A program made the position numbers and the translations under genes. The notes under the pieces are model-generated. The model was not told the DNA's origin. It did no database searches and was given only the letters and a program-made list of their open reading frames with translations. From Klenkia marina (GTDB lineage: Bacteria; Actinomycetota; Actinomycetes; Mycobacteriales; Geodermatophilaceae), in contig NZ_FMUH01000002.1 of assembly GCF_900101025.1 (NCBI RefSeq), forward strand, positions 62,001 through 126,000: 64,000 nucleotides of DNA, given 5' to 3'. Positions 5,625-17,077 of this stretch are shown here, one piece after another. The first letter of the stretch is position 1; the number at the start of each line of letters is the position of its first letter.

Positions 5625-6662
5625 TCAGTGCAGGGGGGCGGTGGACGAGCGGGTCACCAAGCGGCAGGGGTAGGACTCGACGCCGTGACCGGCCCGGCCC
5701 TCGATGGCCGAGGCCAGTCGCAGCGCGGCGACGCGGCCCAGGTTCTCCAGTGCGGGGTCGATGGTCGTGAGCGGCGGTCGTGATCCCGTGGCCAGCACCT
5801 CCCAGTTGTCGAACCCGATGACGGCGACCTCCTCGGGCACCCGCTTGCCCGCTTCGAGCAGGGCGTCGAGCACCCCGCGGGCGATCTGGTCGGATCCGGC
5901 GAACACCGCGTCGAGCGCCGGTTCGCGGTCGAGCAACAGCCGGGTGGCCCCGCGGCCCCAGGCCTCGCTCCAGCTGTCGTACATGACCTCGCCGCCGGCC
6001 AGGGTCAGCCCCTCCTCGGCCAGTCGCTCGACAGCACCGCGGGCCCGGTCGTGCGAGGCGCCGTACGTGGGGTCGCCGGTGACGTGCGCGATGGTGCGGC
6101 GGCCGCAGCGGATGAGGTGGTCGACGGCCAGGCGACCGCCGGCGACGTCGTCGGCCACCACCGACATGTCCTGCGGGTCGTCGGAGGGGGCGTAGGCGTA
6201 CACGACCGGCACCCCGAGGTCCTGGCCCAGCGACGGGCGCGGGTCGGGCTGGGCGCCCACGACGATCAGCCCGTCGACCCGGCGGGAGAGCAGGGCGCGC
6301 AGGTGGTGCTGCTGGCGGATGTGGTCGTCGCGGGCATCGGCCAGCAGCACCGACATCTTCTCCGAGCCGAAGGCGTCCTCGGCGCCGCGCAGCACCGGCA
6401 TGCTGAACCGGCCGACCAGGTCGGAGGTCAGCAACCCGACCGTGCCGCTGCGCTGGGCGACCATGCCCTGGGCCAGGGCGTTGGGCGAGAAGTTCAGGGC
6501 GTCGGCCGCCGACTGCACGCGCTGGCGGGTCGCGGCCCCCACGTGCTGGCGGTTGTTGAGCGCCTTGGACGCCGTCGCGATCGACACCCCGGCCATGGAG
6601 GCGACGTCCTTGAGGGTCGGCGGACGCCCACGGCGGTGCGGGGCGACCTCGTCGACGGACAT
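5625..6662 (-). CDS. LacI-family transcriptional repressor of the adjacent sugar operon
   Basis: A 345-residue LacI/GalR regulator. Residues 16-62 are the DNA-binding head (TLKDVASMAGVSIATASKAL, then a hinge helix near FSPNALAQGM). Residues about 70-340 form the periplasmic-binding-protein-like sensor (VGLLTSDLVGRFSMPVLRG onward). GGGAGGAG lies just upstream of the ATG. It is divergent from a sugar ABC importer and a GH127 arabinofuranosidase, and a canonical LacI-type operator sits on that operon's promoter. The inducer is therefore probably an arabinose-containing saccharide; this is inferred from context. Confidence 0.92.
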   Translation of the reverse strand: MSVDEVAPHRRGRPPTLKDVASMAGVSIATASKALNNRQHVGAATRQRVQSAADALNFSPNALAQGMVAQRSGTVGLLTSDLVGRFSMPVLRGAEDAFGSEKMSVLLADARDDHIRQQHHLRALLSRRVDGLIVVGAQPDPRPSLGQDLGVPVVYAYAPSDDPQDMSVVADDVAGGRLAVDHLIRCGRRTIAHVTGDPTYGASHDRARGAVERLAEEGLTLAGGEVMYDSWSEAWGRGATRLLLDREPALDAVFAGSDQIARGVLDALLEAGKRVPEEVAVIGFDNWEVLATGSRPPLTTIDPALENLGRVAALRLASAIEGRAGHGVESYPCRLVTRSSTAPLH

Positions 6663-6753: not shown

Positions 6754-6756
6754 CCG

Positions 6757-6766
6757 AAAACGTTTT
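6757..6766. promoter_or_regulatory. LacI-family operator
   Basis: AAAACGTTTT is a perfect palindrome with the central CG typical of LacI/GalR operators and is AT-rich in otherwise GC-rich DNA. It sits directly after the -10 box, over the expected transcription start, so bound repressor would block initiation. The divergent LacI-type gene is the obvious ligand. Confidence 0.8.
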
Positions 6767-6911
6767 AGCGACGTGGATCACGACAGCGGCGACGGGCTTC
6801 CCCAGAAAGCTGGGGGAGTGCGACGCACGCGGCACCGGAGACCGGCGCTGGACCGAAACGGGTTTCTGATGTCGGAGCGGCGCTCGCCGCGAACAGGAAG
6901 GCACGACGACG

Positions 6912-8216
6912 ATGACGTGGACACCACGCCGCCGCACCGCCCGCTGGGGCGCGCTCCTCGCGGCCGCCAGCATGACCGCCGCACTCGCCGCATGCGGTGG
7001 GTCCGCCGAACCCGCCGCAGCCGGTGACCCGTCCAACGTCGAGGGCGTCGACGACGGCACCACCCTCACGCTGTGGACCCGGGCACCGTTGGAGTCCCAG
7101 GCCAAGGCGCTCGTGGATGCCTACAACTCCAGCCACGAGAACCAGGTCGAGCTGACCGTCGTGCCCAACGACGACTACGTCGCCAAGGTCGGTGCGGCCG
7201 CCGGCTCCGGCAGCCTGCCGGACCTCTTCGCCGCCGACGTCGTCTACCTGCCGAACTGGACCTCGCAGGGGCTGTTCAGCGACCTGACCGAGCGCATCGG
7301 CAACCTGGACTACGCCGACCAGATCAACCAGTCCGTGCTGGACGCCGGCACCTACGAGGACGAGCAGTACGTGCTGCCCTTCGTGCTGGACCTGTCGGTG
7401 ATGTTCTACAACAAGGACCTCTACCGCGAGGCCGGTCTGGACCCGGAGCAGGGCCCCACCACCCTGCAGGAGTTCCGCGACCAGGCCCTGGCGATCCAGG
7501 CGCTGAACAAGCCCGACACCTACGGCACCTACTTCGGCGGCAACTGCGGTGGCTGCGGGGTCTTCACCTGGTTCCCCATGATGTGGGCCAGCGGCGAGCA
7601 GGTGCTCGAGGACGACGGGACCACCGCCGACCTGGCCAGCGACACCGCCCAGCAGGTCTACGGCATCTGGCGTGACCTGGCCGACGCCGGGGCCATCGCC
7701 CCCGGTGCCGCCGACGAGACCGGGGCCACCTGGACCGCGGCCTTCCAGCAGGGCCAGGTCGGGGTCATGCCCTACCCGGCCACCCTGCTGCAGACCGCCA
7801 GCGAGACCGTCGACGTCGGCGTCACGGCGATCCCCGGTGTCGACGGGGGCGAGTCCACCTTCGTGGGCGGCGACGGACTGGGCATCAGCAAGGACTCCGA
7901 GCACCCCGACCAGGCGTGGAACTTCCAGCAGTGGCTGATGAGCGAGGCGGCCCAGGTCGACGTGCTGGCCAAGAACAACGTGACCCCGGCCCGCTCGGAC
8001 TTCCTGGACAACCAGTACGCCACCGACCCCCGGGTCCAGCTGATCAACCAGGTCTCCGCCGCACCGGACAGCCAGACCCCGATCGCGCTGAACTTCCAGC
8101 AGGCGTTCAACGCCGTCGGCAGCCCGTGGTCCACCTTGTTCCGCAACCAGGTCTTCGGGGACGCCTCGACGCTCGACGAGGACAACCAGGCCATCACCGA
8201 CGTGCTCCAGCAGTAG
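6912..8216 (+). CDS. sugar ABC transporter substrate-binding lipoprotein
   Basis: A 434-residue family 1 extracellular solute-binding protein. The signal peptide ends in a lipobox (ALAAC, Cys near residue 27), so the mature protein is lipid-anchored outside the membrane. The body has the usual TLTLWTRAPLESQAK opening, a DLFAADVVYLPNW segment and a C-terminal EHPDQAWNFQQWL motif typical of oligosaccharide binders. It is first in an operon with two permeases and a GH127 enzyme; no ATPase gene is present, so a shared MsmK-like ATPase encoded elsewhere must energise it. Substrate, by context, is a plant arabinoside or its oligosaccharide. Confidence 0.92.
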   Translation: MTWTPRRRTARWGALLAAASMTAALAACGGSAEPAAAGDPSNVEGVDDGTTLTLWTRAPLESQAKALVDAYNSSHENQVELTVVPNDDYVAKVGAAAGSGSLPDLFAADVVYLPNWTSQGLFSDLTERIGNLDYADQINQSVLDAGTYEDEQYVLPFVLDLSVMFYNKDLYREAGLDPEQGPTTLQEFRDQALAIQALNKPDTYGTYFGGNCGGCGVFTWFPMMWASGEQVLEDDGTTADLASDTAQQVYGIWRDLADAGAIAPGAADETGATWTAAFQQGQVGVMPYPATLLQTASETVDVGVTAIPGVDGGESTFVGGDGLGISKDSEHPDQAWNFQQWLMSEAAQVDVLAKNNVTPARSDFLDNQYATDPRVQLINQVSAAPDSQTPIALNFQQAFNAVGSPWSTLFRNQVFGDASTLDEDNQAITDVLQQ

Positions 8217-8291: not shown

Positions 8292-9254
8292 ATGGCGACG
8301 GTCACCACGCCCGACGCGCCACCGGCCAGCTCGCCGTCCCGGGCCCGCACCCGGGTGCCCCGGCGCCGTCCAGGCCAGCGGGTGCGCCAGCGGCGCCGGC
8401 TGGGCGCCCTGTACGCCTCCCCGACCGCCCTGTTCCTGCTGGTCTTCTTCGTGGTGCCGGTGATCCTGGTGCTGCGGATGTCGGCCTCGGACTGGAGCCT
8501 GTTCGTCGGCGACCGCGGGGCCAACTTCCCGACCAACTTCGGCGAGGCGGTCGACGACCGGCTGTTCTGGCCGGCCATCCGCTTCACCCTGACCTACACC
8601 GCGATCACCACCGTGATCCTGCTGGCGCTGGCCCTCGGGCTGGCCCTCGTGGTGCAGGAGTCCGGGCGCTGGTCGGCGTTCGTGCGGACGTCGTTCCTGG
8701 TGCCCAGCGCCCTGGGCCTGGCCTCGGCCTCCCTGCTGTTCTACGGGCTGTACTCCCCGCAGTCGAGCCCGATCAGCGCGTTCCTGGAGTGGATCGGGGT
8801 CATCGACACCCCGGTGTCCTTCCTCGGCACGCCCGGCGCCGCGCTGTGGTCCACCGTCGCGCTGGTGGTCTGGCGGTTCGCCGGCTTCTACATGCTGCTG
8901 CTCCTGGTCGGCCTGCAGGCCATCCCCGGCGACGTCTTCGAGGCCGCCCGGATGGACGGCGCGAGCCGGTTCCAGACCTTCCGGTCGATCACGCTGCCGC
9001 TGCTCAAGCCCTCGCTGGCACTGTCGACGATCCTCTGCGTCACCGGGTCGCTGCTGGCCTTCGACCAGTTCTACGTGCTGACCAAGGGCGGGCCGGACAA
9101 CAGCACCGTCACCATCGTCCAGCTCGTCTACAGCATGGCCTTCCAGGGCCAGAACGACCTGGGCCGCGCCGCGGCCCTGTCCATCATCGTGCTGGGCGGG
9201 CTGCTGGTGCTCAACGCACTGCAGTTCCTCGGCCTCCGCGGCGACCGGGACTGA
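8292..9254 (+). CDS. sugar ABC transporter permease (MalF/UgpA type)
   Basis: A 320-residue inner-membrane permease with six predicted helices after a basic N-terminal region. The first is YASPTALFLLVFFVVPVILVL, near residue 40. The cytoplasmic EAA-type loop (VFEAARMDGASRFQTFRSITLPLL, given here across about residues 217-240) contacts the ATPase. AGGAGG lies six bases before the ATG. It follows the binding-protein gene and is followed after five bases by the partner permease. It is membrane subunit one of the importer predicted to take up arabinose-containing sugars. Confidence 0.92.
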   Translation: MATVTTPDAPPASSPSRARTRVPRRRPGQRVRQRRRLGALYASPTALFLLVFFVVPVILVLRMSASDWSLFVGDRGANFPTNFGEAVDDRLFWPAIRFTLTYTAITTVILLALALGLALVVQESGRWSAFVRTSFLVPSALGLASASLLFYGLYSPQSSPISAFLEWIGVIDTPVSFLGTPGAALWSTVALVVWRFAGFYMLLLLVGLQAIPGDVFEAARMDGASRFQTFRSITLPLLKPSLALSTILCVTGSLLAFDQFYVLTKGGPDNSTVTIVQLVYSMAFQGQNDLGRAAALSIIVLGGLLVLNALQFLGLRGDRD

Positions 9255-9259
9255 GCCCC

Positions 9260-10177
9260 ATGACCACCACACCTGCCGCCCAGGCGGCGCCCCTGACCGC
9301 CGGCGCCGACCCGGCCACCACCCCCTCGGCCCGCACCCTGGGGCCGCGTCGCCGGCCCGGTCGGCGCGGGCTGGCCACCATGGGTCAGCGCACCTTCACC
9401 GGTGCCCTCGCCCTGCTGTTCCTGTTCCCGATGGTCTGGGCCGCGGTGGCCTCGGTGTCGCCGAAGGGCGGCACCAACCAGACCGACGGCATCGGGCTGG
9501 GCAACTACCGCACGCTGGTGGACTACCAGGCCGGCATCTGGCAGTACCTGGCCAACTCGGCCTTCGTCTCGCTGCTGACCGTGGTGCTGACCCTGACCGT
9601 CTCGTTGCTGGGCGGGTACGCCTTCGCCCGGTTCGACTTCCCCGGCAAGAACCTGCTGTTCCTGGGCACGCTGGCGATCCTCATGGTCCCGTACGCGACC
9701 CTGCTGATCCCGCTCTACGTGCTGCTCAACGACCTCGGGCTGCAGAACTCGTTGGTCGGGCTGGCGCTCGTGCTGACCATGTTCCAGCTGCCGTTCGCGA
9801 CCTTCATGATGCGCATCTCGTTCGAGGCCGTCCCGAAGGAGCTCGAGGAGGCGGCCATGGTCGACGGCTGCGGCACCTTCCGCGCCCTGGTCATGGTGCT
9901 GCTGCCCGCGGTGCGCGCCGGGCTGGTCACCGTCGGCCTCTTCGCGTTCCTGGCGGCCTGGAACGACTTCATCACCCCGCTGATCCTCATCAGCGACTCC
10001 TCGAAGGTCCCGCTGCCGCTGGCGGTGGCCAACCTGCGGGGCCAGACCCAGGGCATCGTCGACTTCGGCGCCACGGAGGCCGGCGTCGTCGTCCTCGCGC
10101 TGCCCTGCGTCCTCATCTTCCTCATGCTGCAGCGCCACTACGTGCGCGGCTTCATGTCCGGCGCACTCAAGGGATGA
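9260..10177 (+). CDS. carbohydrate ABC transporter permease (MalG/UgpE type)
   Basis: A 305-residue permease with a basic, proline-rich N-terminus and six helices. The EAA loop (VPKELEEAAMVDGCGTF, about residues 190-206) is the ATPase docking site, and the AAWNDFITPLILI segment is characteristic of CUT1 second permeases. The ATG at 9260 is five bases after the previous stop. Its 3' end overlaps the start of the GH127 gene by four bases, so uptake and hydrolysis are translationally coupled. Confidence 0.92.
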   Translation: MTTTPAAQAAPLTAGADPATTPSARTLGPRRRPGRRGLATMGQRTFTGALALLFLFPMVWAAVASVSPKGGTNQTDGIGLGNYRTLVDYQAGIWQYLANSAFVSLLTVVLTLTVSLLGGYAFARFDFPGKNLLFLGTLAILMVPYATLLIPLYVLLNDLGLQNSLVGLALVLTMFQLPFATFMMRISFEAVPKELEEAAMVDGCGTFRALVMVLLPAVRAGLVTVGLFAFLAAWNDFITPLILISDSSKVPLPLAVANLRGQTQGIVDFGATEAGVVVLALPCVLIFLMLQRHYVRGFMSGALKG

Positions 10178-12138
10178 CCGTGACCACCACGACCGACCGC
10201 ACCGCCCCCTCGTCCACCGGTGCCGCCGTGAACCCGCCGGCGGCACCGGTGGTCCCCAGCCTGTCGCGGCTGCGGCCCCTGGGCATAGGGGAGGTCACCA
10301 TCACCGGTGGCCCCTGGGCCACCCGGCAGGCCACCAACGCCGCCGCCACCCTGGGCCACGTCGAGCACTGGCTCGAGCGCGAGGGCTGGCTGGGCAACTT
10401 CGACGCCACCGCCGCGGGTGCCTCCGGCGCCGACCGGGCCGGCCGCGAGTTCTCCGACAGCGAGACCTACAAGCTGCTGGAGGCCATGGCCTGGGAGCAC
10501 GGTCGCAGCGGCGATCCCGAGCTCGACGCCCGGCTGCGGGCGATCGTGGCCCGGGTGGCCGCCGCCCAGCAGCCCGACGGGTACCTGAGCACCGCCTTCG
10601 GGCGCCCGGGGACCCCCGAGCGGTGGAGCGACCTGGAGTGGGGCCACGAGCTGTACTGCCTGGGCCACCTGTTCCAGGCCGGCGTCGCCCGGGCCCGCAC
10701 CGCGGGACCGGATGAGCTGCTGGAGGTGTGCACCCGGGCTGCGGACCTGGTCTGCGAGGTCTTCGGGCCGCAGGGCATCCCGTCGGTCTGCGGGCACCCG
10801 GAGATCGAGCCGGCCCTGGTCGAGCTGTACCGGGTCACCGGTCAGCGCCGCTACCTCGAGCAGGCCCGGCTGTTCCTGGAGCGCCGGGGGCACCAGGTGC
10901 TCGCCGAGGTCGAGTTCGGCCGCGCCTACTTCCAGGACGACGTCCCGATCCGCGAGGCCGACGTGCTGCGCGGGCACGCCGTGCGGGCCACCTACCTGTC
11001 CTCCGGCGCGGTCGACCTGGCCGCCGAGACCGGCGACGAGGAGCTGCTGGCCGCGGTCGTGCGCCAGTGGGAGGCCACCGTCGCCCGGCGCACCTACCTC
11101 ACCGGCGGCATGGGATCCCGGCACCAGGACGAGGCCTTCGGCGAGGACTTCGTGCTGCCCCCCGACCGCGCCTACTCCGAGACCTGCGCCGGCGTCGGGT
11201 CGGTCCAGCTCGCGTGGCGGTTGCTGCTGGCCCGCGGCGAGGCGCGGTACGCCGACCTGGTCGAGCGCACCCTCTACAACGTCGTGGACGCCGGCCCCTC
11301 GGCCTCGGGCACCGCGTTCTTCTACACCAACACCCTGCACCAGCGGGTGCTGGGCACCGTCCCCGACGCCGACCACGCCGTGCCGCGGGCGGCCTCCTCG
11401 CTGCGCGCGCCGTGGTTCGCCGTCTCCTGCTGCCCCACCAACGTCGCCCGCACCTTCGCCAGCCTGCAGACCCTGGTGGCCACGGCCGACGAGGACGGGG
11501 TGCAGGTGCACCAGTACGCCCCGGCCACGATCGCCACCGACCTGCCGGCCGGTCGGCTCGAGCTGCGGGTGGTCACCGACTACCCGCACACCGGGCGGGT
11601 CGAGGTCGTGGTCGAGCGGGCTCCGGCGGACCCGGTGGCGGTGACGCTGCGGGTGCCCGGCTGGGCGACCGGCGCCACGCTCACCGACGGCGAGGACGTC
11701 CGGGAGGCGGCGCCGGGGTCGGTCACCACCACCCGGGCGTTCACCACCGGCGAGGTACTCGTGCTCGACCTGCCGCTCCAGCCGCGGTTCACCGCCGCCG
11801 ACCCCCGGGTCGACGCGGTGCGCGGCACGCTGGCCGTGGAGCGCGGGCCCCAGGTGCTGTGCGTGGAGTCGGTGGACCTGCCGGGGGAGCGCCACGTCGA
11901 CGACCTGGTGCTCGACCCGACCCGGGCACCCGAGGACGTCGAGGGCGGGGTCCGGGTGCACGGCTGGCTGCGGCAGCAGGCCGACCCGGCCTGGCCCTAC
12001 GGCGAGCCGACGCCGGGTGGTGCCGCGGGCGAGCAGGTCTCCGTGCTGCTGCACCCCTACGCGGACTGGGCCGAGCGCGGCCCGTCGACGATGCGGGTCT
12101 TCCTCCCCGTGCCCGGCGCGCCCTCCGCCGCGTCGTGA
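10174..12138 (+). CDS. GH127 family glycoside hydrolase, probable beta-L-arabinofuranosidase
   Basis: A 654-residue enzyme of the GH127 (HypBA1) family, which removes beta-L-arabinofuranose from plant hydroxyproline-rich glycoproteins and related glycans. The family uses a Zn-bound cysteine nucleophile. Here the Zn ligands and catalytic pair are visible as ETC (Glu336, Cys338) and SCCPTN (Cys419, Cys420), matching the Glu338/Cys340/Cys417/Cys418 pattern of HypBA1. The N-terminal part has the HVEHWLEREGWLGNF segment and the (alpha/alpha)6 barrel, followed by beta domains. No signal peptide is present, so hydrolysis is cytoplasmic after import by the upstream transporter. Start and stop overlap both neighbours by four bases. 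Confidence 0.9.
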   Translation: MTVTTTTDRTAPSSTGAAVNPPAAPVVPSLSRLRPLGIGEVTITGGPWATRQATNAAATLGHVEHWLEREGWLGNFDATAAGASGADRAGREFSDSETYKLLEAMAWEHGRSGDPELDARLRAIVARVAAAQQPDGYLSTAFGRPGTPERWSDLEWGHELYCLGHLFQAGVARARTAGPDELLEVCTRAADLVCEVFGPQGIPSVCGHPEIEPALVELYRVTGQRRYLEQARLFLERRGHQVLAEVEFGRAYFQDDVPIREADVLRGHAVRATYLSSGAVDLAAETGDEELLAAVVRQWEATVARRTYLTGGMGSRHQDEAFGEDFVLPPDRAYSETCAGVGSVQLAWRLLLARGEARYADLVERTLYNVVDAGPSASGTAFFYTNTLHQRVLGTVPDADHAVPRAASSLRAPWFAVSCCPTNVARTFASLQTLVATADEDGVQVHQYAPATIATDLPAGRLELRVVTDYPHTGRVEVVVERAPADPVAVTLRVPGWATGATLTDGEDVREAAPGSVTTTRAFTTGEVLVLDLPLQPRFTAADPRVDAVRGTLAVERGPQVLCVESVDLPGERHVDDLVLDPTRAPEDVEGGVRVHGWLRQQADPAWPYGEPTPGGAAGEQVSVLLHPYADWAERGPSTMRVFLPVPGAPSAAS

Positions 12139-13286
12139 GCGCCGTGCCGCACGAGGACCCGCCGGTCATCTTCGACGTGGCCCGCCGCGCCGGCGTCTCG
12201 TACCAGACCGTCTCGCGGGTGGTGAACGGCTCGGGCCCGGTCCGGGAGAGCACCCGGGCCCGGGTCGAGGCCGCGATCGCCTCGCTGGGCTGGGTGCCCG
12301 ACGAGGCCGCGCAGCAGCTCAGCCGCAAGCGGGCGGCGGCGGCCGCCCGGCCCGAGGTCGCCGCACTGGTGGGCGGGTCCGCGTCCGGCAGCCCCTCCGG
12401 GGTCGCCCGGCGCGACGGTGTCCACCCTCCGGCCACCGTGCTCGTCACCGGGGGCAGCGGCAAGCTCGGCCGCGCGGTGGTGGACCACCTGGTGTCCGAC
12501 GGGTACCGGGTCGCGGTGGTCGACCTGCGGGCGCCCCACCGGGACGACGTCCCCTGGACCCGGGCCGACCTCACCGACCCCGGCCAGGCCCTCGAGGTGC
12601 TCTCGGGCATCGACGACCGCTGGTCGCGGCCCGACGCCCTCGTGCACCTGGCCGCGGTGCCGGCGCCGGGCCAGCTGCCCGACGCGACCCTGTTCGCCTC
12701 GAACATCACCACCACCTACAACGTGTTCGCCGCGGCCCGGCGGGTCGGCATCACCGACGTCGTGTGGGCCTCCAGCGAGACGGTGCTGGGGCTGCCGCTC
12801 GCCGTGCCGCCGCCGTCGTTCCCCCTCGACGAGGAGACCGGGCCCACCCCGACCACGTCGTACTCGCTGTCCAAGACGCTGGAGGAGGAGATGGCCCGGC
12901 AGTTCGCCGGCTGGATGCCCGGCTCCTCGTTCATCGGTCTGCGGCTGTCGAACGTGATGGCGGTGGAGGACTACGCCGCGTTCCCCGGCTTCGACGCCGA
13001 CCCGGCCCTGCGCCGCTGGAACGGGTGGAGCTACATCGACGCGCGGGACGCCGCCCGCGCCGTCGCCGCCGGGTTGACCCACCCGGTCGACGGTGCGGAG
13101 CTGTTCGTCGTCGCGAACGCCGACACGGTCATGGGCCGCAGCACCGCCGAGCTGGCCGAGCTCGAGTTCCCCGGCGTCCCGGTCCGGGTGCCGCTGGCCG
13201 AGCACACCGCGCTCATGAGCACCGCCAAGGCCGAGCGCCTGCTGGGCTGGCGCCCGGTGCACACCTGGCGCGACGAGGTCGGGTGA
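12135..13286 (+). CDS. fusion of a LacI-type DNA-binding head to an NAD-dependent epimerase/dehydratase
   Basis: One uninterrupted 383-residue frame begins at a GTG that overlaps the GH127 stop (GTGA). Residues about 9-60 are a full LacI head: IFDVARRAGVSYQTVSRVVN, then the recognition/hinge region ending in GWVPDEAAQQLSRK. A roughly 35-residue Ala/Gly/Arg linker leads to an extended short-chain dehydrogenase. That part has the NAD motif TGGSGKLG (about 104-111), HLAAVPAPG, and the catalytic YSLSK (Tyr-x-x-x-Lys, near 241). The substrate-binding half ends near LLGWRPVHTWRDE. The sensor domain normally attached to a LacI head is replaced by an enzyme. The SDR part resembles sugar epimerases or uronate dehydrogenases. 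It may be a repressor that reads NAD or a nucleotide sugar, or an enzyme with a leftover head. An internal GTG near the SDR start lacks a ribosome site. Confidence 0.85.
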   Translation: MSAVPHEDPPVIFDVARRAGVSYQTVSRVVNGSGPVRESTRARVEAAIASLGWVPDEAAQQLSRKRAAAAARPEVAALVGGSASGSPSGVARRDGVHPPATVLVTGGSGKLGRAVVDHLVSDGYRVAVVDLRAPHRDDVPWTRADLTDPGQALEVLSGIDDRWSRPDALVHLAAVPAPGQLPDATLFASNITTTYNVFAAARRVGITDVVWASSETVLGLPLAVPPPSFPLDEETGPTPTTSYSLSKTLEEEMARQFAGWMPGSSFIGLRLSNVMAVEDYAAFPGFDADPALRRWNGWSYIDARDAARAVAAGLTHPVDGAELFVVANADTVMGRSTAELAELEFPGVPVRVPLAEHTALMSTAKAERLLGWRPVHTWRDEVG

Positions 13287-13290
13287 GGCC

Positions 13291-14679
13291 TCACTGACCG
13301 TCGGTGCGGCCCCGGACCTCGGCGTAGCGCTCGCGGACGGCGGGCGTCGGGTCGGCCTCGACCGTGCGGGTGCCGGCGGCCGCCCACGAGGGCAGCTCGC
13401 CGCCCAGCACCCAGGCCGCCTGCCGGGCGGCGCCGCCGGCGACCGCCTCACCGGGCTCGGGGACGACGACCGGCCGGCCGAACACCGCCGGGGCGATCTC
13501 CTGCACCGCCCGCGACCGTGCGGCCCCGCCGACCAGCAGCACCCGCTCGACGACGGCGCCCTGGGCGAGGAGGGCGTCGATGCCGTCGGCCAGGCCGCAG
13601 AGCATGCCCTCCACGGCGGCCCGGGCCCAGTGCCCGGCGGTCGAGGTCCGCAGGGTGAGGCCGTGCACCGAGCCGGTGGCGTGCGGCAGGTCCGGCGTCC
13701 GCTCGCCCTCCAGGTAGGGCACGAGCACCAGCCCGTCGGCGCCGGCGGGGGCGCTGAGGGCCAGCTCGGCGAGCTCGTCCAGGGACACCCGCAGCATCGC
13801 GGCGGCGGCGTCGAGCACCCGGGCGGCGTTGAGGGTGCAGACCAGCGGCAGGAACCGTCCGGTGGCGTCGGCGAACCCCGCGACGGTGCCGGTGGGGTCG
13901 CCGGCCGGGACGTCGGACACCGCGGTGACCACGCCCGACGTCCCCAGCGACACGGCGACGTCGCCGGGCCCCGCCCCCAGCCCGAGTGCCGCGGCAGCGT
14001 TGTCGCCGGCGCCGGGGCCCAGCAGCACGTCACCGGCCCGGCCGACCACCTCGGCGGGCCCGGCCACCCGCGGGACGACCGGCGAGCGGCCGCGCAGCGC
14101 GAGCTCGAGCAGGTCGCGGCGGTACTCACCGGTGGGCGCCGACCAGTAGGCGGTGCCGCTGGCGTCGGACCGGTCCGTCACCAGGGATTCCAGGCCGCGC
14201 GACCCGGCCAGCCGCCAGGTCAGCCAGTCGTGCGGCAGGCACACGGCGGCGGTGCGGTCGGCGTGGTCGGGCTCGTGGTCGGCCAGCCAGCGCAGCTTCG
14301 ACGCGGTGAACGAGGCGACCGGGACGATGCCCACCGCGTCGGCCCAGGCCTGCCCGCCGCCCAGCTCGGTCACCAGGTCGGCGGCGGCCCCGGCCGAGCG
14401 GGTGTCGTTCCACAGCAGCGCCGGGCGCACGACCTCGCCGGCGTCGTCGAGGCAGACCATGCCGTGCTGCTGGCCGCCGACGCTCAGCGCGGCGACGTCG
14501 TCGAGCCCGCCGGCCGCGGCCACCGCCTCGTCGAGCGCGGCGCCCCAGGCGCGCGGGTGCACCTCGGTGCCCTCGGGGTGCGCGGCCCGGCCCTCGCGGA
14601 CCAGTGCCCCGGTCTCGGCGTCGCGGACGACGACCTTGCAGGACTGGGTCGAGCTGTCCACACCGGCGACGAACGGCAC
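13291..14679 (-). CDS. xylB: xylulokinase
   Basis: A 462-residue FGGY-family kinase that phosphorylates D-xylulose to xylulose 5-phosphate with ATP. The ATPase-fold start is [13 protein letters not shown] (residues 6-18), GGQQHG and LLWNDTR lie in the N-terminal half, and the second lobe carries SLGTSGVV and the adenosine region [16 protein letters not shown] lies before the GTG start. It is divergent from the ROK regulator xylR and xylose isomerase xylA across a 71-base spacer, so the three genes form a xylose regulon. Its 3' end faces the LacI-epimerase gene across four bases. Confidence 0.92.
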
Positions 14680-14691
14680 GGGGACCTCCTG

Positions 14692-14719
14692 TTGACGAGG
14701 GAGCGTGATCCAGACAATA
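14692..14719 (+). promoter_or_regulatory. candidate promoter of the ROK regulator and xylA
   Basis: TTGACG at 14692-14697 is a good -35 box; the best -10 options are GACAAT (14713-14718) or ACAATA (14714-14719), with a short spacer of 15-16 bases. The xylB Shine-Dalgarno lies in the same 71-base divergent spacer. A ROK operator should also be here, but I cannot assign it firmly. Confidence 0.4.
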
Positions 14720-14750
14720 GTGCAGAGACCGAACGAATGGGAGTGGTCGA

Positions 14751-15935
14751 GTGCAGACGCAGGGGCAGGTGCGCAGCGCGAACCTCGCCGCCGTCCTCGC
14801 CTGCCTGCGCGACGGCGGCCCCCGCAGCCGTGCCCGGCTGGCCGCAGACACCGGGTTGACCAAGGCCACGGTGTCCAGCCTGGTCGCCGAGCTGGTCGAG
14901 CGCGGGCTGGTGGTCGAGGGAGCCCTCGTGCGCCCGGGCTCGGTGGGTCGACCGAGCACCCTGGTCGAGCTGGACGGGCGGGGGTTCTGCGGCATCGGGG
15001 TCGAGGTCAACGTCGACTACCTGGCCGCGCTCGCCCTCGACCCCACCGGCACCGTGCGCCGGGAGACCCGCCTGGCCCTCGACGTCGCCGCCCTCGCCCC
15101 CGCCGAGGTGCTGGCCCGGGCCTCGGCCCTGGTCTCGGAGGTCCGCGCGGGCCAGGGCGCGGCGGCCGTCGGGCTGACCGTCGCGGTGCCCGGCCAGGTG
15201 CAGGGCGCCGTCGTCCGCACCGCCCCCAACCTGCCCCGCTGGGTCGGGACGGACGTCGCCGCCGGGTTCGCCGACCAGGGCCTGCCGGTCACGGTGGCCA
15301 ACGACGCCGACCTCTCGGCGCTGGCCGAGGTGTCCGCCGGTCCGCACGCGCACGTCGCCGACCTGGTCTACCTGACCGGAGAGGTCGGCGTCGGCGGCGG
15401 CGTGGTCACCGGCGGGCAGCTGCTGCGCGGCAGCACCGGGGTCGGCGGCGAGGTCGGGCACCTGGCGCTGACCCCCGGCGACGCCGTCTGCGGCTGCGGG
15501 CGCACGGGCTGCTGGGAGACCGTCGTCGGGCTGGCCGCGTTGCTGCGCGCCGCCGCGGACCCCGGGGACCCGCTGCGCGACCCCGGCCGCGACCTGGAGG
15601 ACCGCCTCGCCGAGGTGGTCGCCCGCGCCCGCGCCGGCGACGCCCGCACGCTGGAGGCCCTCGCCGGCATCGGCACCGGGCTGGGTGTCGGCGCCGCCGT
15701 CCTGGTCGCCCTGTTCGACCCCGCCGTCGTCGTCCTCGGTGGGTACTTCGCCGAGGTCGGCGAGTTCCTGCTCGACCCGCTGCGGGCCGCTCTGGCCCAG
15801 CGGGTCGAGGACGCCGACCGGGTGGTCCTGTCCACCCTCGGCTTCACCGCAGCCGTCCGGGGCGGCGCGCACGTCGCGCTGCAGCCGGTGTTCGACAACC
15901 CCACGTCCGTCCCCCTGCTGGAGGCTCCCGCATGA
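14751..15935 (+). CDS. xylR: ROK-family transcriptional regulator, probable xylose repressor
   Basis: A 394-residue NagC/XylR-type protein. Residues about 8-65 form a winged helix ([20 protein letters not shown]). The ROK sugar-binding/kinase-like fold follows, with the Zn motif [10 protein letters not shown] (about residues 245-254) that marks the repressor branch. It starts at a GTG after GGGAGTGG and its stop overlaps the xylA ATG by four bases. Placed between xylB and xylA, it is most likely the xylose-responsive repressor of both; that is inferred from context, since ROK repressors vary in ligand. Confidence 0.88.
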
Positions 15936-17077
15936 CCCGCACCCCCACCCCCGCCGACCGCTTCTCCTTCGGCCTGTGGACCGTCGGCTGGCAGGGCGTC
16001 GACGTGTTCGGCGGCGCCGTGCGCGAGCCGATGGACCCGGTCGAGGCCGTGCACCGCCTCGCCGAGCTGGGCGCCGCCGCCGTCACCTTCCACGACGACG
16101 ACCTCGTGCCCGACGACAGCACCCGCGACGCCGTCCTCGAGCGCTTCAAGGGCGCGCTGACCGAGACCGGCATGGGGGTCGAGATGGCCACGACCAACCT
16201 GTTCGGGCACGCCGTGTTCAAGGACGGCGCGTTCACCGCCAACGACCGCGACGTGCGCCGGTACGCGCTGGCCAAGGCCGCCCGCAACATCGACCTGGCC
16301 GCCGAGCTGGGCGCCACCACCTACGTGTTCTGGGGCGGTCGCGAGGGCGCGGAGTCCGGCGGCGCGAAGGACATCGGCGCCGCGCTCGAGCGCTACAAGG
16401 AGGGCATGGACACCCTCTGCTCCTACGTGAAGGAGCAGGGCTACGACATGCGGTTCGCCATCGAGCCCAAGCCGAACGAGCCCCGCGGCGACATCCTGCT
16501 GCCCACCATCGGGCACGCCCTGGCGCTGATCTCCGAGCTCGAGCACAGCGAGATGGTCGGCCTGAACCCCGAGGTCGGGCACGAGGAGATGGCCGGGCTG
16601 AACTTCGCCGCCGGCATCGCCCAGGCGCTGTGGCACGGCAAGTTGTTCCACGTGGACCTGAACGGCCAGCACGGTCCGCGCTACGACCAGGACCTCCGCT
16701 TCGGCGCCGGCAACCTGCGCGGGGCCTTCTGGACCGTCGACACCCTCGAGACCATGGGCTACGACGGCTACCTGCACTTCGACTACAAGCCCCCGCGCAC
16801 CGAGGACGTCGACGGCGTCTGGGAGTCGGCGCGGGCGTGCATGGCCAACTACCTGGTGCTGAAGGAGAAGGCCGCCGCGTTCCGGGCCGACCCCGAGGTG
16901 CAGGAGGCCCTGGCCGCCTCCCGGGTGGCCGAGCTCTCCCAGCCGACGATCGGTGCGGGCGAGACCCTGGCCGACGTGCGCGCCGAGAGCTTCGACGTCG
17001 AGGCGATGGCCCGCCGCGGCATGGCCTTCGAGCGCCTGGACCAGCTGGCGATGGACCACCTGCTCGGCGTCCGCTGA
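15932..17077 (+). CDS. xylA: xylose isomerase, class I
   Basis: A 381-residue TIM-barrel enzyme converting D-xylose to D-xylulose, of the short actinobacterial class I type. The ring-opening His54 and Asp57 are in TFHDDD, and the metal ligand and catalytic residues Glu178 and Lys180 are in [11 protein letters not shown]. The metal-site region FHVDLNGQ is also intact. Length matches Streptomyces enzymes (about 385-390). It is coupled to xylR by an ATGA overlap and followed by a strong terminator. The product feeds xylulokinase xylB. Confidence 0.96.

Follow-up and report, generated by a model that had tools for sequence, protein, structure and literature searches.

A window of 64,000 nucleotides from Klenkia marina (contig NZ_FMUH01000002.1) contains a gene whose protein product joins a LacI-type DNA-binding head to a complete domain of the extended short-chain dehydrogenase/reductase (SDR) class. 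This fusion is conserved in relatives, its head and its catalytic residues are intact, it is linked to a sugar-uptake operon that includes a GH127 gene, and its head has counterparts without any sensor. Our tentative interpretation, in which we place slightly less than even confidence, is that the protein is a natural one-chain DNA-binding sugar enzyme, in which dimerisation and ligand binding have passed from the sensor to the SDR and the occupancy of the SDR is coupled to DNA binding. According to Ravcheev et al. 2014 (PMC4052901), members of the LacI family keep rigidly to two characteristic domains, so that an architecture combining a LacI head with an SDR is unusual for the family. A search of the literature on natural fusions between LacI heads and enzymes yielded no paper, although one may exist elsewhere.

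The domain composition is well defined. The frame is uninterrupted, with a GTG start that overlaps the GH127 stop codon (GTGA) and a TGA stop. Pfam recognizes the LacI family (PF00356) at residues 12–56 (E-value 4.3e-17, 62.1 bits against a cut-off of 27) and the Epimerase family (PF01370) at residues 102–284 (E-value 4.5e-25), and gives no match to the periplasmic-binding-protein (PBP) effector domains PF00532, PF13377 and PF13407 in this protein or its two orthologues. The motifs IFDVARRAGVSYQTVSRVVN, TGGSGKLG and YSLSK can all be read in the protein, the hinge-helix region spans residues 55–66, and the hinge motif takes the form W53-P55-A59-L62. In the AlphaFold2 model, a three-helix head with a hinge helix (residues 12–70; helices at 12–19, 23–31, 38–51 and 55–70) and a folded SDR are connected by a linker that is predicted to be flexible and disordered, with a predicted local distance difference test (pLDDT) score below 50 at residues 66–96. 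The closest solved chain to the N-terminal part is the head of the E. coli lac repressor, and those closest to the remainder are SDRs of the GalE and uronate dehydrogenase type; Foldseek places the SDR part among GalE-type extended SDRs at ~20–27% identity and, with ~285 amino acids, it is shorter than many of the matched structures (up to ~345). A preliminary description of this DNA had proposed an uninterrupted frame from a coupled GTG, a full LacI head followed by a linker and a complete SDR, and an enzyme in the place of the sensor, all of which is borne out.

As in the LacI/GalR family (PF00356 with PF00532, PF13377 or PF13407), the head is complete, with the base-reading residues S16, Y17, Q18, S21 and R22 of E. 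coli LacI and a YPAL-type hinge, but an SDR stands where the family has its PBP sensor. With extended SDRs such as uronate dehydrogenase, Azf glucose-6-phosphate dehydrogenase and GalE-like enzymes the protein shares the glycine loop, the S-Y-K active site and the fold, but the relatives examined are without a DNA-binding head, and the fusion SDR reaches none of the NCBIfam equivalog cut-offs. The signature of the class (TGxxGxxG loop, YxxxK and an upstream serine) is present in an alignment of 16 sequences. The protein is an extended SDR, of a subfamily annotated just as NAD(P)-dependent oxidoreductase; it is not a LacI regulator in the strict sense, because the sensor domain is missing. A defence-system library gave no match.

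Conservation was assessed in nine genomes labelled Modestobacter, with the window counted among them. The fusion is present in three: the window, Modestobacter sp. Leaf380 (NZ_LMQC01000019.1; 77% identity) and a third genome, G002 (67% identity). Each copy is a single frame with both domains (PF00356 E-values of 9.3e-17 and 2.9e-16 in the orthologues) and a Y/W-P-A-L hinge, and the linkers measure ~33, 60 and 25 amino acids. GH127 occurs in exactly the same three genomes, a co-occurrence of 1 in 84 by count if the two were independent, and in all three the fusion adjoins a sugar ATP-binding cassette (ABC) transporter and GH127. The Leaf380 neighbourhood is the same as that of the window (LacI 80%, solute-binding protein 88%, permeases 83–84% and GH127 80% identical), except that an ABC ATPase gene separates GH127 from the fusion; G002 has a different kind of transporter (25–33%) and an inverted GH127, with the fusion still adjoining permeases. 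A contig scan with the fusion protein as query returned only Leaf380 and one weak LacI-head match. In a plasmid collection, 2058 records matched, none covering 80% of the fusion, and among the matches listed the aligned part is limited to the SDR. Profile searches across the order and class, covering several hundred genomes and scoring the best ten candidates in each, gave only ordinary LacI heads and no other full match.

Between the window and Leaf380 the head is under as much constraint as the enzyme: the ratio of nonsynonymous to synonymous substitution (dN/dS, Nei-Gojobori-type counts) is 0.25 for the head, 0.24 for the SDR and 0.64 for the linker, which is only 32% identical in amino acids. 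In the alignment, S22, Y23, Q24, S27, R28 and N31 and the hinge residues A59, Q60 and L62 are identical in the two proteins and match S16, Y17, Q18, S21, R22, N25, A53, Q54 and L56 of E. coli LacI. The preliminary description had named the loss of DNA-contact residues across orthologues as a test of its proposal; all of these are kept in Leaf380, and the G002 head retains Q24, R28, A59 and L62. A YPAL motif between the domains has been reported to be critical for binding lacO-like operators, with half-site spacing as in lacO (PMC13056197).

The ancestry of the two halves can be partly traced. In a tree of 49 LacI heads, which rests on 58 columns and so has limited power, the three fusion heads and two stand-alone short LacI proteins form one clade (support 91/96), apart from all full-length heads, and a family-wide search with a head of this clade (E <= 1e-14) retrieved nothing but fusions and short proteins, a third short one in genome G092 among them. 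These mini-LacI proteins of Geodermatophilaceae, of 133–138 amino acids, are sensor-less, with a tail that looks, by its sequence, like a shortened sensor remnant. The gene immediately upstream encodes an ABC ATPase in two cases and GH127 in the third; in G092 the order is LacI, solute-binding protein, two permeases, GH127 and mini-LacI, the operon type and terminal position being those of the window fusion. The fusion head is thereby placed among LacI heads of a sensor-less lineage, members of which also exist alone. The arabinose regulator AraR, introduced below, was considered as a direct head donor, since its head is among the nearest full-length ones, but was rejected on the grouping with mini-LacI. 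Many Actinomycetes have an orthologue of the SDR (~46–73% identity), and where the DNA just upstream was read it showed no head; apparent head-ward extensions of the matches in G327, G148, G282 and G536 proved headless when read. The absence of the head from related homologues, which the preliminary description took as a sign against its proposal, is common in Actinomycetes; the three Modestobacter fusions keep the head. In the SDR tree the G002 enzyme groups with headless relatives (95/96), but an approximately unbiased test keeps a single fusion clade (p 0.13), as is likewise compatible with the head tree (p 0.38), and, neither tree rejecting one clade, one and two fusion origins both stand. 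Eight of the nine Modestobacter genomes also encode a second, headless SDR paralogue, ~43% identical (loci L002, at G000:C10:330618-331520, and L011–L017).

The genomic context points to arabinosides. The gene order in the window is LacI (reverse strand), solute-binding protein, two permeases, GH127 and fusion. In another family of the class (f51; genomes G536, G734 and G656) an operon of the window type lies near a headless SDR orthologue in all three genomes, with identities to the window of 62% for LacI, 62–63% for the solute-binding protein, 61–72% for the permeases and 57–60% for GH127; the SDR adjoins the operon in two (L158, L159) and lies within ~10 kb in the third (L160). That both domains are kept in homologous GH127 operons is true within the genus (three of three GH127 genomes); in f51 the SDR is headless. 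In two f51 genomes and in G574 (L158, L159, L168) the headless SDR is divergent from a full-length LacI, downstream of which are genes for L-arabinose isomerase, a sugar kinase and, usually, L-ribulose-5-phosphate 4-epimerase; this LacI, here named AraR, shares 43–50% identity with the LacI of the araBDA locus in Modestobacter. In these contexts the SDR recurs together with GH127, LacI regulators and L-arabinose use. Because Haloferax volcanii has an SDR-type L-arabinose dehydrogenase (PMC9795676), our leading guess for the substrate is L-arabinose or a close derivative; rhizobial relatives of the SDR adjoin sugar transporters and 3-oxo-tetronate enzymes, so that a guess it stays. Other genes flank the fusions. 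Right after the window fusion (13291-17077) come xylB, a ROK-type regulator gene and xylA, a block that also follows the G002 fusion locus (L043). An extra full-length LacI, ~52% identical to the one in the window operon, adjoins the other two fusions (L052:9309-10298, forward strand; L043:10825-11832, reverse strand), and none of this kind was seen beside the window fusion.

The arabinoside/GH127 operon has, as the preliminary description stated, its own LacI repressor and operator. The site CCGAAAACGTTTTAG is identical in Leaf380, has degenerate counterparts (e.g. CCGATAACGTTTGAG) before the orthologues of this LacI in the three f51 genomes, and was not found in G002, the locus of which is without the LacI orthologue. 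Because it tracks the presence of that orthologue, it is most likely the operator of the ordinary LacI, the base-reading residues of which (IA..K) differ from those of the fusion (YQ..R); 6757-6766, suggested earlier as a place to look for binding by the fusion, is accordingly a doubtful target. LacI/GalR regulators have, near the genes they control, a palindromic operator with a central CG; the one seen here suits the ordinary LacI, and none in the three fusion operons could be attributed to the fusion. Perfect palindromes in the Modestobacter araB promoter region (TGTTAGCGCTAACA) and in f51 (TGTTACCGGTAACA and TGTGACCGGTCACA) are probably the AraR operators. The perfect 12-base palindrome GTGAGGCCTCAC (13283-13294) was rejected as an operator of the fusion: it consists of the stop codons of two convergent genes, the fusion and xylB, and has two mismatches to the LacI core, with ~9 such matches expected by chance.

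How the two halves might work together can be outlined as follows. A sensor-less LacI head, of the lineage found in sugar-uptake operons of Geodermatophilaceae, would have been joined to an SDR of the arabinose/arabinoside pathway. Extended SDRs commonly dimerise, and the SDR homodimer would pair the heads and hinge helices on a palindromic operator of LacI type, a task that falls to the PBP sensor in an ordinary LacI. The SDR would still be active as an NAD-dependent oxidoreductase, its substrate a small sugar that GH127 releases (most likely L-arabinose or a close derivative), and DNA binding would become weaker or stronger when substrate and NAD+ or NADH fill the active site, so that the enzyme itself would report pathway flux to a promoter. 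Since the head needs a dimer and the SDR binds a sugar and NAD(H) worth sensing, the simplest reading is that the SDR took over dimerisation and ligand binding while remaining an enzyme. A trigger enzyme also governs gene expression according to its substrate or cofactor; such a role, as previously suggested, is plausible from the domain content; nothing found supports nucleotide-sugar sensing. The full version of the scheme, an active dehydrogenase serving as LacI sensor with substrate and NAD+/NADH occupancy setting operator binding, and derived from heads that were already small stand-alone regulators, is possible but doubtful. Several observations weigh against a coupled sensor enzyme. The linker is long (~25–60 amino acids) and variable, poor for LacI-style allostery; related SDRs almost always do without a head; the G002 head is strongly diverged (53% identity, dN/dS 0.84–0.92), so that constraint there is weak or unmeasurable; scans of the three fusion operons for LacI-type (GTGAGCGCTCAC) and AraR-type (TGTKANCGNTMACA) sites gave nothing above chance; and even the nearest folds to the SDR are only ~20–27% identical.

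With a long linker that is predicted to be disordered the halves may instead work independently, the head binding DNA constitutively, whether as an accessory repressor, in competition with AraR or the ordinary LacI, or to tether the enzyme to the nucleoid, and the SDR being an enzyme that supplies the dimer contact. The stand-alone mini-LacI heads of similar operons are evidence that such a head is tolerated or useful with no ligand sensor attached, and the operon already has an ordinary LacI; but the scans gave no target site for the fusion, constitutive repression of its own sugar operon is hard to square with need, and all three GH127 genomes have kept the fusion. We look on such an uncoupled protein as conceivable, with a probability well below even. 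The head could also be vestigial, a decaying mini-LacI gene having been joined in frame to the enzyme gene, such that the head folds and regulates nothing and only the enzyme matters. The apparent sensor remnants in mini-LacI tails, the divergence of the G002 head and the rule of headless orthologues all fit this explanation, which we nonetheless consider unlikely, as the head has the same dN/dS as the enzyme between the window and Leaf380 and keeps its contact and hinge residues while the linker drifts. An error of sequencing or assembly, or a wrong start codon, joining two genes has practically no probability left: the GTG is without a clear ribosome site, yet it is coupled to the GH127 stop, and the same single-frame fusion recurs in three separate assemblies with differing linkers, which cannot share one error.

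Coordinates of the fusion gene, its parts and associated features (window positions unless a locus is given)
Feature	Position	Strand	Basis or remark
lacI-head/SDR fusion gene	12135..13286	+	383 amino acids; orthologues found
LacI-type DNA-binding head and hinge helix (residues 11–66)	12165..12332	+	Pfam PF00356; AlphaFold2 helices; gap-free alignment to E. coli LacI 3–60
Recognition helix YQTVSRVVN	12201..12227	+	base-reading residues as in E. coli LacI Y17, Q18, R22 (sequence and alignment)
Predicted flexible linker	12333..12431	+	low complexity; length varies among orthologues; pLDDT <50
Extended SDR domain (residues 100–383)	12432..13283	+	Pfam PF01370; AlphaFold2 model of the SDR alone with pLDDT 81, predicted TM-score (pTM) 0.86; Foldseek to GalE-type SDRs
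NAD-binding glycine loop TGGSGKLG	12447..12470	+	T105, G106, G109, K110, G112 invariant in 16 sequences
Catalytic Ser pair S213/S214	12771..12776	+	invariant in 16 sequences
Catalytic Y243-x3-K247	12861..12875	+	invariant in 16 sequences
GH127 beta-L-arabinofuranosidase family gene	10174..12138	+	Pfam PF07944, E-value 4.9e-87; overlaps fusion start
Sugar ABC solute-binding protein	6912..8216	+	Pfam PF01547
Sugar ABC permease A	8292..9254	+	Pfam PF00528
Sugar ABC permease B	9260..10177	+	gene call; 84% orthologue in Leaf380
The operon's ordinary LacI repressor, full length (head and PBP sensor)	5625..6662	-	Pfam PF00356 and PF13377
Operator CCGAAAACGTTTTAG	6754..6768	+	most likely of LacI 5625-6662, not of the fusion
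Second LacI-like site CCGAAACGGGTTTCTGA	6853..6869	+	operon promoter region; counterpart CCGAAACTGTTTTCTGA in Leaf380
Candidate AraR operator TGTTAGCGCTAACA	L190:8856-8869; araR-araB gaps of L191, L192
Candidate AraR operators TGTTACCGGTAACA / TGTGACCGGTCACA	gaps downstream of LacI2 in L158, L159, L168
Stand-alone mini-LacI (head and short tail)	L152:6397-6798	-	no other Pfam domain above cut-off
Stand-alone mini-LacI (head and short tail)	L153:7374-7790	-	no other Pfam domain above cut-off
Stand-alone mini-LacI (head and short tail)	L203:9141-9557	-	no other Pfam domain above cut-off

Known proteins offer partial parallels. Rex consists of a winged helix and a Rossmann NADH sensor; it resembles the fusion in placing a DNA-binding head on an NAD-binding Rossmann domain and differs in the kind of head, in lacking an SDR and in acting on no metabolic substrate. 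The head of PutA is a ribbon-helix-helix. Like the fusion, PutA combines a metabolic oxidoreductase and a DNA-binding head in one chain, although in the fusion their coupling is inferred, and both its head and its enzyme are of different types. PutA is a trigger enzyme, a dehydrogenase that is also a DNA-binding repressor (PMC6978683). BtAraR, of the NrtR family, has a winged helix and a Nudix-hydrolase-like domain that senses L-arabinose (PMC4666351), and so provides an example of an enzyme-derived fold, rather than a sugar-binding-protein fold, as the sugar sensor in an arabinose regulon; it pairs Nudix with a winged helix where the fusion pairs an SDR with a LacI head, and its sensor is hydrolase-like whereas the catalytic residues of the fusion are intact.

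LacI proteins are textbook sugar-sensing repressors, described as one head on one kind of sensor. If the reading of the fusion as a DNA-binding sugar enzyme is correct, a conserved natural swap of sensor for enzyme, together with the stand-alone heads, would show that the modularity of the LacI head seen in engineered chimeras also exists in nature. The fusion would then offer a compact and testable instance of an enzyme of metabolism that is its own transcriptional sensor, in which one protein may both process a sugar and read DNA.

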